From Natrinema sp. DC36 (lineage in GTDB: Archaea > Halobacteriota > Halobacteria > Halobacteriales > Natrialbaceae): a DNA stretch of 64,000 bases. The number at the start of each line of letters is the position of its first letter. Position 1 is the first letter of the stretch. Location: NCBI RefSeq assembly GCF_020405225.1, contig NZ_CP084472.1:868001-932000 (forward strand), written 5' to 3'. The notes under the pieces were generated by a model. That model made no database searches and was not told the DNA's origin. It worked only from the letters and a program-made list of their open reading frames with translations. A program made the translations under genes and the position numbers. Shown here piece by piece: positions 18,456 through 58,815 of this stretch.

Positions 18456-18500
18456 CGGTGGGATCTGGTCACGGCTACGTCGCGAACCGTTTTAGTAGTT

Positions 18501-18513
18501 CGGTTCCGAACCG
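18501..18513. promoter_or_regulatory. Candidate operator palindrome
   Basis: cggttccgaaccg is a 6-bp inverted repeat around a central C, with a further gaaccg half-site at 18484-18489. It sits between the divergent HxlR regulator and flavin reductase genes, near the expected core promoters. The same palindrome core recurs at 55627-55641 and 58003-58017, so it may not be specific to this regulator. Confidence 0.45.
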
Positions 18514-18587
18514 GATAACATCGTGTTAGTAGATTGCGGGCGTTCAGCTCTGACGCCGACCGGAGATCGATCGCCGGAGGGACCGCG

Positions 18588-55333: not shown

Positions 55334-55734
55334 CAGGTTTATATCACAGGAATGGTTGTTAAACCTCCCTCCCGTTACAGATTCTGAGTCGTGAGCCGTC
55401 GTCGTGCAGCGGTCACGACTTCACCGTCCCGAACGATGCGGTGGCGCTCGAGCGTCAGCTACCGGAATCCAGTCGGGGACCGACTCCGTCATCGTGGGGC
55501 GGCGACTCGAGTGGCCCCCGCTACCAGCAGTTTCTTACTGTGACGATTCGAGGTGGCAGGTATCATGGGGTTGCCGGACAATTCGTAAAAGCATTTGGCT
55601 CGCAAAGATTGGATACACTCGAGTCCCCGGTTCCGAACCGGCCGCCCGACGAGTGATGTCGGCAGGTGGTGTGTGGTGGTTCGATCGGACCCGCCGACCG
55701 GCCGGCTGATCGTCGGGGCTCGAGTCCCCCCGAC
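55334..55734. other. Intergenic region leading into duplicated module copy 1
   Basis: No gene is seen. The first 280 nt have no match elsewhere in the window. From about 55618 the sequence is part of the duplicated module, including a 15-bp palindrome (ccggttccgaaccgg, 55627-55641). Confidence 0.55.
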
Positions 55735-55905
55735 CTACTCCTCGCGAAGGCTCGGAAAGAGGTCCGGCGGGACCGAACAGCCGCAGGGAGCGACGGAGCC
55801 GGTGTAGGGCCCGGTGGCGGTCGAGAACAACACGGGGTCGCCACAGCGCGGACAGTCGGGGAACGGCGACTCGTCGTCGTCGCTCGCGTCCGAAGGGCTA
55901 TCCAT
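55735..55905 (-). CDS. CPxCG-type zinc-finger micro-protein, copy 1
   Basis: A 56-residue ORF gives an acidic N-terminus (D-A-S-D-D-D-E-S), C-P-R-C-G near residue 18-22, then F-S-T-A-T-G-P-Y-T and P-C-G-C-S-V-P-P-D-L-F. The same pattern is encoded at 58109-58306. The two C-x2-C / C-x-C pairs resemble haloarchaeal CPxCG zinc-finger micro-proteins, some of which affect biofilm or swarming in Haloferax. The stop is at 55735. The homology of the two copies is the main support. Confidence 0.8.
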   Translation of the reverse strand: MDSPSDASDDDESPFPDCPRCGDPVLFSTATGPYTGSVAPCGCSVPPDLFPSLREE

Positions 55906-55969
55906 CGCGACCGCGCCTCGGTCGGTGCGGCGAGGACGCTACTCGTGTCGGGCGATTCGACGGTCGTGC

Positions 55970-55986
55970 GGGACGTTTATATCCCG
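55970..55986. promoter_or_regulatory. TATA box inside an inverted repeat, copy 1
   Basis: cggga-cgtttata-tcccg places a TATA box within 5-bp inverted arms. It is 25 nt upstream of the ATG at 56004 on the plus strand, and it also reads gatataaac on the minus strand toward the zinc-finger gene. The same arrangement is at 58374-58390. Confidence 0.55.
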
Positions 55987-56003
55987 GTAGAATGAACGCA
56001 ATC

Positions 56004-56107
56004 ATGGCAACCGAAGCGTTCCGCTTTGGAAGCCACGTCTCGGGTGGTTCCAGCACCCGGGGCATTTCGATGCAGCCCCTCGCTCGTGCGTTTAGAGACT
56101 GGCTTCC
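56004..56107 (+). ncRNA. Candidate structured RNA (or leaderless micro-ORF), copy 1
   Basis: A long-range stem (56028-56035 with 56100-56107, extended by gtctc/gagac) encloses two hairpins: gggtg...caccc (56042-56058) and gcat-ttcg-atgc (56062-56073, with flanking ggg/ccc). A third hairpin precedes it (56011-56028). In copy 2 the stems persist while loops and some arms differ. The same start also begins a micro-ORF of 59 codons (M-A-T-E-A-F-R-F-G-S-H-V-S-G), so coding is an alternative. Confidence 0.4.
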
Positions 56108-56185
56108 GTTTGGATTGTTGACCTATTGTGACTTATATCTATTGTTACTGCGGAGAAAGAGAGTCCGCCTCGAGCCACCCTGAAC

Positions 56186-56461
56186 CCCGAACCACCGACG
56201 CTCGAGTCCGCTCGAGAGCGCGACGGTGGTATCGTACGAGGCATCGATCGGTCCTCGCTCGCTTTGCGATGCACTCACTTCGTCCGCCCATCGCATCGCT
56301 CGGACGTGATCTCCAACGCGCGCCACCGCACGGTACCAGTATGAGCCGACGGTTCGATAAGTGCGTGTGCACACGTGCTGCGGATTTTGTGTAGAGTAGT
56401 GGATTCGATCCTCAGTGAGCGAAATAGCGCGTTCGTGCGCTCTTCTTCGGCGTGTGTCGGA
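56186..56461. other. Spacer with fragment of dispersed repeat
   Basis: No gene. Bases 56316-56330 (cgcgcgccaccgcac) match the second block of the repeats at 1 kb and 19.7 kb, suggesting a truncated third copy. Confidence 0.45.
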
Positions 56462-56854
56462 CTACTTGGACTCCGGTATCTGAACTTTGAGACTGCCAGT
56501 GCTGCTTACCGCGACTTCGCAGTCGTGAAACTCGAACACGACGCGAAAATCATCTCCAGTAGTCTCTGATGGCGTGGTAACTGAATCAAGTGCATCCGGA
56601 TCAACTGTCGAATATAGCGGTTCCATATTGAGTGGATCCATATTAGAGACGGCCGCAACTGCATTTACAACGGCGATACTCGGGGACGCGTCATTGAAGC
56701 GATAAATCGCTCGATAAACCCCTTCATCGGCGTCGTATTCAACCGACTCGAGCTCACAGTAGTCTTCTTCGACGTCGAAAGTTCCTGATTGTTCTAGCAG
56801 TGATACCTCGAGAGCTTTTCGGCTATCCGGAGATTGGGAGTCAGTGTCAGTCAT
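56462..56854 (-). CDS. HalOD1 output-domain protein
   Basis: The 130-residue protein matches the haloarchaeal HalOD1 domain: S-I-A-V-V-N-A-V-A-A-V-S, N-M-E-P-L-Y-S-T-V-D-P-D-A-L-D-S-V and V-V-F-E-F-H-D-C-E-V-A-V. HalOD1 is a small output domain often linked to sensor genes. The ATG at 56854 follows an in-frame GTG at 56857. Composition is less GC-rich than flanking genes. It lies downstream of the Bat-HTH gene on the same strand. Confidence 0.85.
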   Translation of the reverse strand: MTDTDSQSPDSRKALEVSLLEQSGTFDVEEDYCELESVEYDADEGVYRAIYRFNDASPSIAVVNAVAAVSNMDPLNMEPLYSTVDPDALDSVTTPSETTGDDFRVVFEFHDCEVAVSSTGSLKVQIPESK

Positions 56855-56929
56855 CACTTCATCTTTAATCGCTTAACCGAGGTGACTCTGGCCGTTTCCT
56901 GCACAATGGAGTATTTAAGCGTCGTTCGT

Positions 56930-57574
56930 TTACGGACGGAATTCGGTCAGCGTTTGTTCTATGAGACGGCGGTTGCCACGTCGCAATCGAGCACCGAGTG
57001 CCTGCTGTGAAATTTCAAGGTCATCGGCGATCTCCTTCAATGTCGTACCCCGCGGCGAATCGAAGTACCCACGTTCATACGCCAGAATAAGCGCATCACG
57101 TTGTGAGTCCGTGAGGTTCTGCTTCACATCGAGCGGGCGGAGTGCGTGGAGTTCTGTCAAACTGACTGGGATACCGTGGTCGTGGCAGTATTCGCGGAAC
57201 TCCGCAATCGCCTTTCGACTTTCACCGCGAAGCTCAAACGTCCATTGCTTCTCAGTCCCGATAGCCGATAACAGAACCACTTCTGGAGTGATTAGCGCGT
57301 CGAGTACGCCATCATACTCTGGAACCCATGCACATCGCATAAGAGTCTCGCCATCAGTGCTATCGACGACACGAATATCTCGTACGCCGGGATGATCCGA
57401 GAACTGCTTTACGATCGTATCACTTTCCGTCCCTCGCACCCAAAAATATGGGACGACGCCGTTTGTATCCGGGATAACCCGTTCAAGTTGAACGGTTACA
57501 TCTGGTAATGTCGCAAACACGGTTCCCAGGGGAAACTCATCGGCTGCCAACGTGAATTCAGCTACGGTCGCCAT
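56930..57574 (-). CDS. Bat-type HTH transcriptional regulator
   Basis: The 214-residue protein begins M-A-T-V-A-E-F-T-L-A-A-D-E-F-P-L-G-T-V-F, the typical Bat N-terminus, has L-D-A-L-I-T-P-E-V-V-L and Q-W-T-F-E-L-R-G-E-S. An HTH-10 domain follows (L-T-D-S-Q-R-D-A-L-I-L-A-Y-E-R-G-Y-F-D-S, T-L-K-E-I-A-D-D-L-E-I-S). It is 76 nt upstream of the HalOD1 gene and both lie between the two module copies, making it a candidate regulator of them (inference). Confidence 0.9.
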   Translation of the reverse strand: MATVAEFTLAADEFPLGTVFATLPDVTVQLERVIPDTNGVVPYFWVRGTESDTIVKQFSDHPGVRDIRVVDSTDGETLMRCAWVPEYDGVLDALITPEVVLLSAIGTEKQWTFELRGESRKAIAEFREYCHDHGIPVSLTELHALRPLDVKQNLTDSQRDALILAYERGYFDSPRGTTLKEIADDLEISQQALGARLRRGNRRLIEQTLTEFRP

Positions 57575-58108
57575 TTATACGTTCTCTCCAACGTCCACAC
57601 GACCGGGCATCTCCAGCACTGTATGACGGCGTTCAGAGGTATATTACTCCATGTGTCCATGAGATATTCATCTCAACAGGCGGCTGGGTAGACTACGGAA
57701 ATGAGATTTATTCAATTTCTCCCCGATGCAATTAGGATGTGATAATATGAGTGACTGACTCTCATCGAGTAGCCGGATCGTGCATCTGCCCGTAGAATAC
57801 GCACGCAGTTACATAACAAGCTATAGATATAAATGCGCCTGATTGCATCCCAGCGGTCGTGGTAACAACTTCACCTGTACTTACCGCCGGTTTCACAGCG
57901 CATTCTCGATGAGGGAACCGCGCTACGATCTACGACGAACGAGCCTGAACTGCGAACCAGGATTCCGATAGGCCGCGTCTATCGGTACCCGGACTCGAGG
58001 CCCCGGTTCCGAACCGGCCGGCCAGCGAGCGATGTCGACGGGTGGTGTGCGGTGATTTCGATCGGACCCGCCGACCGACCTGTCGATCGTCGAGGCTCGA
58101 GTCCCGAG
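57575..58108. other. Intergenic region before module copy 2
   Basis: The 534-nt region has no accepted gene. Its first 350 nt are AT-richer than the genome background. From about 57992 it joins the duplicated module, including palindrome ccggttccgaaccgg at 58003-58017. Confidence 0.55.
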
Positions 58109-58306
58109 CTACTCGTCGCGCTGGACGAGGTTCGGCGGCACCGAACAGCCACAGGGACTGGCCGACGCCGTCAGCGGGCCGGTGACGGTGACGAAACCGA
58201 CCGGGGTACCGCAGCGCGGGCAATCGGGGCGCGACGATAGGTTGCCGTCGCTCTCCTCGAGACGCGGCGATGAGCCACCATCGCTCTCCCCGGTGTTACG
58301 ACTCAT
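58109..58306 (-). CDS. CPxCG-type zinc-finger micro-protein, copy 2
   Basis: The 65-residue protein has a variable Ser/Glu-rich N-terminus, then P-D-C-P-R-C-G-T-P-V-G-F and the C-terminal S-P-C-G-C-S-V-P-P-N-L. It is a clear paralogue of the 55735-55905 product: the Cys pairs, T-G-P and C-S-V-P-P are shared. One C-x2-C plus one C-x-C would bind a single zinc ion. Its role is unknown. Confidence 0.82.
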   Translation of the reverse strand: MSRNTGESDGGSSPRLEESDGNLSSRPDCPRCGTPVGFVTVTGPLTASASPCGCSVPPNLVQRDE

Positions 58307-58373
58307 CGCGACCCCCCATCGATCGTCCGTGCAGAATCGACAGTACTTGAGTCGGGTGGTTCTGTTGTCGTGC

Positions 58374-58390
58374 GGGATGTTTATATCCCG
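58374..58390. promoter_or_regulatory. TATA box inside an inverted repeat, copy 2
   Basis: cggga-tgtttata-tcccg has the same layout as copy 1. The ATG at 58408 is 25 nt downstream on the plus strand. Confidence 0.55.
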
Positions 58391-58407
58391 GTAGAATCAA
58401 CGTAATC

Positions 58408-58504
58408 ATGGCTTTCGAAGCCTTCCGGCTTGGAAGCCACGTCTCGGGTGCTTGCTTCACCCGGGGCATTTCGATGCAGCCCCTGTTCTCTATGAGTGGC
58501 TTCC
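58408..58504 (+). ncRNA. Candidate structured RNA (or leaderless micro-ORF), copy 2
   Basis: The outer stem is 58432-58440 with 58496-58504 (9 bp). Inside are cgggtg...cacccg (58445-58463) with a different 7-nt loop from copy 1, and the same ttcg-capped hairpin. The preceding hairpin (gaagcc/ggctt) is shifted by one register relative to copy 1 yet still pairs. The micro-ORF here is only 36 codons (M-A-F-E-A-F-R-L-G-S-H-V-S-G) and differs in its end from copy 1, which weakens the coding view. Confidence 0.4.
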
Positions 58505-58815
58505 GTTTGGATTGTTGACCTGTCGTGACTTATATCTACTGTTACTCGATCGGAATAGATCTCGGCCTCGAGTGCGAACCTGTCCTCGAAGCCCAGCACC
58601 GCTGACGAGCGGCATCGAACGGCCGGACGAATTGCGACGACCGCTCGCGGGCGGGGTGGCCCGAACCGCTCGACCGTCGCCGACAACTTTAGCCGACGAT
58701 ACCGACCGCTGGATCGTCTCAGCCGGCGGCTGCGCCCGCACTCGAGGGGGAGCGCGACAGCCGCAATCGGACCGGGCCCAAATGTATATCCCTCTCGTGA
58801 CCCGAGTAGTGGGGT

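Follow-up and report, generated by a model that had tools for sequence, protein, structure and literature searches.

Predicted copy-specific antisense control of a multicopy leader and zinc-finger module in haloarchaea

In the CopA/CopT-tap-repA system of IncFII plasmids, as in RNAI/RNAII, sense and antisense RNAs form fully overlapping hairpins whose first contact, loop to loop, sets the specificity of the pairing; in CopA/CopT-tap-repA, a leader peptide is also coupled to the regulated gene. Here, we analyze a module that occurs twice in a 64,000-nucleotide (nt) stretch of Natrinema sp. DC36 (contig NZ_CP084472.1, positions 868,001 to 932,000; "the window," to which all coordinates refer) and that consists of a structured RNA block, a short open reading frame (ORF1), and a gene for a CPxCG zinc-finger microprotein (ORF2). 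We consider it probable that each copy is under copy-specific antisense control, exerted on the coupled leader ORF before the zinc-finger gene in the style of CopA/CopT-tap-repA or hok/mok/sok.

In hok/mok/sok of plasmid R1, the antisense RNA is directed against the start region of mok, a small upstream ORF before hok, and paralogs exist on plasmid and chromosome (PMC8309996). The Ibs/Sib pairs of E. coli likewise form paralog families, with antisense RNAs that carry recognition domains (TRD1 and TRD2 of SibC) (PMC8309996). In archaea, the antisense RNA T-ant of halovirus PhiH exposes the T1 transcript to RNases that remove its ribosome-binding sites (PMC4284463, PMC6210493). The haloarchaeal regulator Brz combines a CPxCG-like pattern with a second cysteine pattern (PMC2253796), and an antisense RNA to brz has been reported (PMC6523106).

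Module architecture and distribution

The two repeat copies, of about 530 nt each (55617-56149 and 57993-58546), are 82-92% identical, which is far above chance, and share one order of parts: the palindrome CCGGTTCCGAACCGG, a minus-strand CPxCG ORF, a TATA element, and a structured block. A preliminary description of the locus had recognized both copies and this order, but took the block for a separate, TATA-led structured element. The sequence argues instead for a 5′ leader on the minus strand that runs into ORF1 and whose promoter lies beyond its far end. Read in this direction, the block terminates in an AUG that starts ORF1, which is usually 28 to 50 amino acids (aa) long and marked by the pattern M[IF]..ILP[GR][YH]K[RH][PL]AR.... 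Between the stop of ORF1 and the start of the zinc-finger gene there is an overlap of 4 nt in 45 copies, 8 nt in 14, and 11 nt in 5. A coupled small ORF between leader and main ORF, as in the cis-antisense class, is thus present as an overlap in 64 of the 67 scorable copies, and the fixed lengths suggest that translation of the zinc finger is coupled to that of ORF1. Judged from its reading frames, the layout of block, ORF1, and ORF2 is that of an mRNA with a structured leader. The reading frames of the two window copies are as follows.

55898..56005, minus strand: copy 1 ORF1, a 35-aa leader ORF (MIAFILPGYKRPARPSNRPTRVASSPHRPRRGRDG) with an 8-nt overlap between its stop and the start of ORF2
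55735..55905, minus strand: copy 1 ORF2, a CPxCG zinc-finger microprotein of 56 aa with the arrangement C-x2-C-x18-C-x-C
58296..58409, minus strand: copy 2 ORF1, a 37-aa leader ORF (MITLILPGYKHPARQQNHPTQVLSILHGRSMGGRDES) that overlaps the ORF2 start by 11 nt
58109..58306, minus strand: copy 2 ORF2, a CPxCG zinc-finger microprotein of 65 aa

The zinc-finger proteins of the two copies are 61% identical, and no Pfam or NCBIfam family scored above its cutoff. The published definition of CPxCG zinc fingers asks for a CPxCG-like pattern and a second Cys/His pair (2-3 residues between) 7-40 residues away in fewer than 100 aa (PMC2253796). Pattern, distance between the cysteine pairs, and length agree with it; the second pair, C-x-C, is one residue shorter.

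The window genome (5.1 Mb, 7 contigs) contains seven copies of the structured stretch, again seven when a second model is used, and all seven have the zinc finger beside them. A covariance model built from these seven copies has matches in 78 of the 125 genomes of the window's family (24 of 29 genera), with at least 28 copies in the genome richest in them. Across the class, it matches 102 of 391 genomes at E <= 0.001, many of the matches outside the family being single and weak. The second model, which describes the mRNA strand, matches 94 of the 391 genomes at E <= 1e-4. Carriers include Natrinema, Natrialba, Halopiger, Halostagnicola, Halovivax, Natronorubrum, and Natrarchaeobius, with plasmid copies in Halomontanus, Natribaculum, and others, and some chromosomal copies keep the same neighbors across species. 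A search by cysteine pattern places a zinc-finger ORF beside the RNA in 73 of 83 collected copies, so the association proposed from the window alone recurs well beyond it. Among Natrialbaceae copies without the CPxCG-PCGC protein, ORF2 often encodes, in our own reading of the sequences, another zinc ribbon or a HalOD1-like protein, often with an ATGA overlap; in a few, no coupled ORF is seen. In distant haloarchaeal families, the leader and both of its promoters (described below) are retained ahead of other genes: unrelated ORFs open at the same AUG, including one for a PadR regulator and, again by our own reading, ones for other zinc fingers and a SWIM-like protein.

The preliminary description knew of no counterpart. 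We found no description of this RNA family in the open-access literature searched, and, judged by the gathering thresholds, neither the window region nor any of ten distant and own loci significantly matches a family of Rfam release 15. The module therefore appears to be widespread among haloarchaea and undescribed. A search for viral carriage produced no match in phage records; viral contigs, probed in a narrow test by two exact core patterns, likewise gave no match. A lone core-pattern match in an actinobacterium, Micromonospora sp. MH99 (L210), is most likely due to chance.

Individual copies show further peculiarities. In genome G084, four leader copies stand in tandem within 4.3 kb (L078:2980-7258), and at least two of these lack a zinc-finger ORF. 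Several plasmid copies (L062, L063, L065, L068, L071, and L021) have in common a small upstream ORF, MNDLSDPRPPLPEW..., of about 87 aa, and some of them add a gene for a SWIM-like protein, giving a larger repeated unit. Several copies of genome G376 (L104, L117, L121, L125, and L128) are found no more than about 1 kb from a contig end (e.g., C56:216, C25:191, and C2:4), as expected if copies sit in repeats that break the assembly.

Leader structure, promoters, and the variable loop

The structured blocks of the two window copies have folding z-scores of −2.5 and −3.2, and comparison of 63 leaders, aligned without reference to structure, supports two alternative helices by covariation, one of which buries the AUG. 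Shuffle controls, which ignore relatedness, pair 84.7% of the cells of helices P2, P3, and P4 combined, whereas the real leaders pair 89.7%; changes on both sides affect 16 pairs in the leaders and 7.4 in the shuffles (0 of 500 shuffles as high). The alternative helix, in which the 3′ strand of P2 pairs with the AUG region, is paired in 91.3% of cells against 84.7%, with a covariation score of 0.174 against 0.051 (again 0 of 500 shuffles as high). In five leaders (L042, L043, L045, L098, and L100), all three strands have changed together. The excess of G.U over A.C combinations on the mRNA strand, 52:12 in P2, 51:8 in the alternative helix, and 21:13 in P4, favors reading the block on the minus strand. 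The following elements of the leader were located.

56006..56107, minus strand: copy 1 structured 5′ leader of an mRNA predicted to start at 56107 (covariation, G.U bias, promoter position)
58410..58504, minus strand: copy 2 structured 5′ leader of an mRNA predicted to start at 58504 (covariation, G.U bias, promoter position)
56101..56107, minus strand: copy 1 helix P2, 5′ strand, GGAAGCC on the mRNA (covariation)
56028..56034, minus strand: copy 1 helix P2, 3′ strand, GGCUUCC on the mRNA, with the start-codon region (just upstream and AUG) as alternative partner (covariation)
56059..56079, minus strand: copy 1 hairpin P4 (covariation)

The TATA box inside cggga/tcccg arms that had been reported for both copies is present, as CGGGACGTTTATATCCCG at 55969-55986 in copy 1 and CGGGATGTTTATATCCCG at 58373-58390 in copy 2. 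It falls, however, within the codons of ORF1 (LPGYKRPA) and is best read as an antisense promoter. Scored on the plus strand with a motif built from 893 upstream regions of these genomes (B recognition element [BRE] CGAAA at −37, TTTAT at −29), it reaches a median of 10.6-10.7, above the 99th percentile of the background; no other site in the module comes close. The motif starts 35 nt before the complement of the A of the AUG in all 61 further named loci; most of the distant loci, whose coding sequence is unrelated, have it at this offset or close to it, with varying scores. On the minus strand, 72 of 77 copies keep the conserved CTTATA-CTACTG at a distance of exactly 24 nt from the stem despite a variable spacer sequence. 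At the position of this mRNA promoter, distant families have CGAAAGTTTATAA or CAGTACCTTTATATG, which score strongly, and in 19 of 23 of their loci the motif starts 37-38 nt from the first stem base. The plus-strand promoter is predicted to make an antisense RNA over the leader, and from the convergent promoter positions this RNA would cover the leader exactly. A promoter for an antisense RNA over the leader, another mark of the cis-antisense class, is thus found as a motif at a fixed position, with the transcript itself predicted. In the window, the promoters are placed as follows.

55969..55981, plus strand: copy 1 antisense promoter CGGGACGTTTATA, within ORF1, from which an antisense RNA would start near 56006 (motif score, fixed offset)
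58373..58385, plus strand: copy 2 antisense promoter CGGGATGTTTATA, within ORF1, from which an antisense RNA would start near 58410 (motif score, fixed offset)
56132..56144, minus strand: copy 1 predicted mRNA promoter, TATA 56132-56137, BRE-like 56139-56144 (spacing)
58529..58541, minus strand: copy 2 predicted mRNA promoter, TATA 58529-58534, BRE-like 58536-58541 (spacing)

The loop of P3 varies far more than the rest of the module. Among ten paralogs from two megaplasmids of one Natrinema strain, which are about 90% identical and encode nearly identical zinc fingers, the loop has 0.605 differences per site, compared to 0.143 at fourfold sites, 0.377 in P1, and 0.000 in the 42 nt from the TATA palindrome to the RNA start. 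In a second family, from three genomes, the values are 0.60-0.72 for the loop and 0.04-0.08 for the adjoining P3/P4 strand. The 83 collected copies contain 64 distinct P3 loops. Because it changes to near saturation between otherwise near-identical copies, the loop is probably a copy-specific address, or specificity element, under diversification. It is complementary to its own antisense RNA by construction, and we found no excess of its complement elsewhere in the same module. Its diversification is consistent with a repressive sense-antisense binding whose specificity is set by loops. The loops of the window copies are these.

56047..56053: copy 1 hypervariable P3 loop, GTTCCAG on the plus strand, probable specificity element of both sense and antisense RNA
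58451..58457: copy 2 hypervariable P3 loop, CTTGCTT on the plus strand

The end bases of the loop follow a preference of their own. On the plus strand, the first and last bases are T and G in 27 copies (14.7 expected) and C and A in 25 (12.6 expected), about twice the expectation from base frequencies and resembling a wobble closing pair.

The module itself, the co-occurrence of its parts, its frames and their overlap, the covarying alternative helices, the divergence of the loops, and the fixed promoter positions are read directly from the sequence; from them, we infer transcription from both promoters, a kissing contact, and repression. The minus-strand mRNA would begin at the first base of P2 with a leader of about 100 nt, which would toggle between a state with P2 formed and the AUG free and a state in which the AUG region pairs with the 3′ strand of P2. 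It would run on into the ORF1 of about 35 aa, and because the ORF1 stop overlaps the zinc-finger start, translation of the zinc finger should depend on translation of ORF1. From the promoter inside ORF1, an antisense RNA would extend from the edge of the start codon across the whole leader. Sense and antisense RNAs would fold as mirror-image hairpins and would probably make their first contact at the hypervariable P3 loops; each antisense RNA would in consequence repress mainly its own copy.

Alternative readings and the surrounding DNA

Several observations weigh against copy-specific antisense control. Both transcripts are predicted from sequence, and the kissing contact is deduced from the variability of the loop; in a weak test, with two genomes counted twice, loops were not more different within genomes than between them. 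Whichever strand is scanned, the mRNA promoter scores low in the family to which the window belongs, and the AUG-burying helix is shortened in copy 1. Changes in P1 tilt toward G.U on the antisense (plus) strand, and the shuffles behind the covariation values carry no correction for relatedness.

Of the alternatives, a riboswitch-like or protein-sensing leader survives best, and we regard it as unlikely. A small molecule, or the module's own zinc-finger protein, would free or bury the AUG, and the antisense promoter would be secondary. A conserved three-way junction followed by an AUG-burying helix fits this idea, as do two states of nearly equal mean energy (−43.7 and −44.0 kcal/mol) and the presence of several different genes behind the same leader. 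However, metabolite riboswitches have a conserved ligand core, whereas the conserved helices here enclose within their core a P3 loop that is hypervariable among near-identical copies, unlike a ligand pocket, and the antisense promoter keeps its position even where the coding sequence differs.

We give rather little credence to a type I-like toxin-antitoxin system, which would be a special case of antisense control with a harmful ORF2 product and the antisense RNA as antitoxin. The hok/mok/sok-like layout with a coupled ORF1, the many paralogs on plasmids and chromosomes, and a divergence of paralog loops like that of the Sib/Ibs recognition domains speak for it. But the ORF2 products carry zinc-ribbon, PadR, or HalOD1-like sequence and thus resemble DNA- or RNA-binding or regulatory domains rather than classical membrane toxins, their toxicity is hypothetical, and some chromosomal copies retain their neighbors between species.

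The layout of the preliminary description, a TATA-led structured noncoding RNA on the plus strand, divergent from an independently transcribed zinc-finger gene, is improbable. It agrees with the strong plus-strand promoter and with the plus-strand G.U tilt in P1. It conflicts with the frame of ORF1 and its overlap with the zinc finger, with the other ORFs that open at the same AUG, with the minus-strand G.U bias in P2 and the alternative helix, and with a block-facing promoter at the far end, while a motif scan of the module revealed no promoter adjoining the zinc-finger start. After weighing the reading frames, the G.U bias, and the far-end promoter, we dropped a plus-strand RNA as the main product. 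The proposal of a small regulatory system stands, with layout and strand revised. Mobile or recently duplicated DNA without a regulatory role, to which recent copies on the megaplasmids of one Natrinema strain would conform, is very unlikely in view of the wide distribution, the conserved frames and promoter positions, and the compensatory changes.

The DNA between the window copies encodes an HTH_10/BAT protein (56930-57574, minus strand) and a HalOD1 protein (56462-56857, minus strand) in genes of about 50-53% G+C, compared to 60-66% in the surrounding DNA, as had been described. These genes did not recur beside other copies when the neighborhoods of the collected copies were compared, so the flanking of two regulators is not a recurrent feature of the module, and a search for conserved neighbor genes found varying contexts, with the chromosomal ones partly syntenic. 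The HalOD1-like ORF2 behind the leader in Halostagnicola (our own reading) and the HalOD1 gene at 56462-56857 may be a coincidence. The palindrome CCGGTTCCGAACCGG belongs to both window copies (55627-55641 and 58003-58017; chance expectation with one mismatch or fewer, 0.01 matches), but among the other collected loci only L037 and L187 carry it, and we rejected it as a general part of the module. A further near-copy with one mismatch lies at 18500-18514, remote from any module.

Comparison with known systems

If copy-specific antisense control is correct, haloarchaea would possess a multicopy system of leaders and antisense RNAs that uses the logic of bacterial plasmid copy control and type I toxin-antitoxin systems; no sequence relation to either was detected. 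Such a system would suggest a mode of control for a class of haloarchaeal zinc-finger microproteins, form a large RNA family new to Rfam (release 15), and provide many naturally occurring pairs of similar RNAs whose specificity could perhaps be read from one loop. A broader generalization, which we offer tentatively as a possibility, is a large archaeal type I-like family in which antisense-controlled effectors (zinc ribbons, HalOD1-like proteins, PadR, and others) stand behind one exchangeable leader in tens of copies per genome, and in which diversifying selection on a kissing loop keeps the members separate.

With CopA/CopT-tap-repA and RNAI/RNAII, the haloarchaeal module shares overlapping hairpins, a coupled leader ORF, and loop-set specificity, here as predictions. 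Unlike CopA/CopT-tap-repA, it has no replication gene, occurs in many dispersed copies per genome, and uses archaeal promoters. To hok/mok/sok it is similar in the direction of its predicted antisense RNA against the start of a small upstream ORF and in its paralogs on plasmid and chromosome. However, hok encodes a membrane toxin, whereas the archaeal module encodes a zinc finger or other protein of hypothetical effect, has its antisense promoter inside ORF1, and carries a hypervariable hairpin loop; no sequence relation between the two was detected. The Ibs/Sib pairs resemble it in their paralog families and recognition domains and differ in the effector, and we know of neither a coupled ORF1 nor an AUG-burying switch in them.

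Among haloarchaeal systems, Brz and other CPxCG proteins are alike in small size and in joining a CPxCG-like pattern to a second cysteine pattern, which in the window zinc fingers differs in being CxC; we found no description of a layout of leader, ORF1, and antisense RNA for Brz or for the CPxCG proteins of Haloferax (PMC11241148). The nearest archaeal precedent is T-ant/T1 of PhiH, a haloarchaeal counter-transcript that affects the ribosome-binding sites of an mRNA. It is a single viral locus, whereas a structured leader and a family of loops are known from the haloarchaeal module and not from PhiH.

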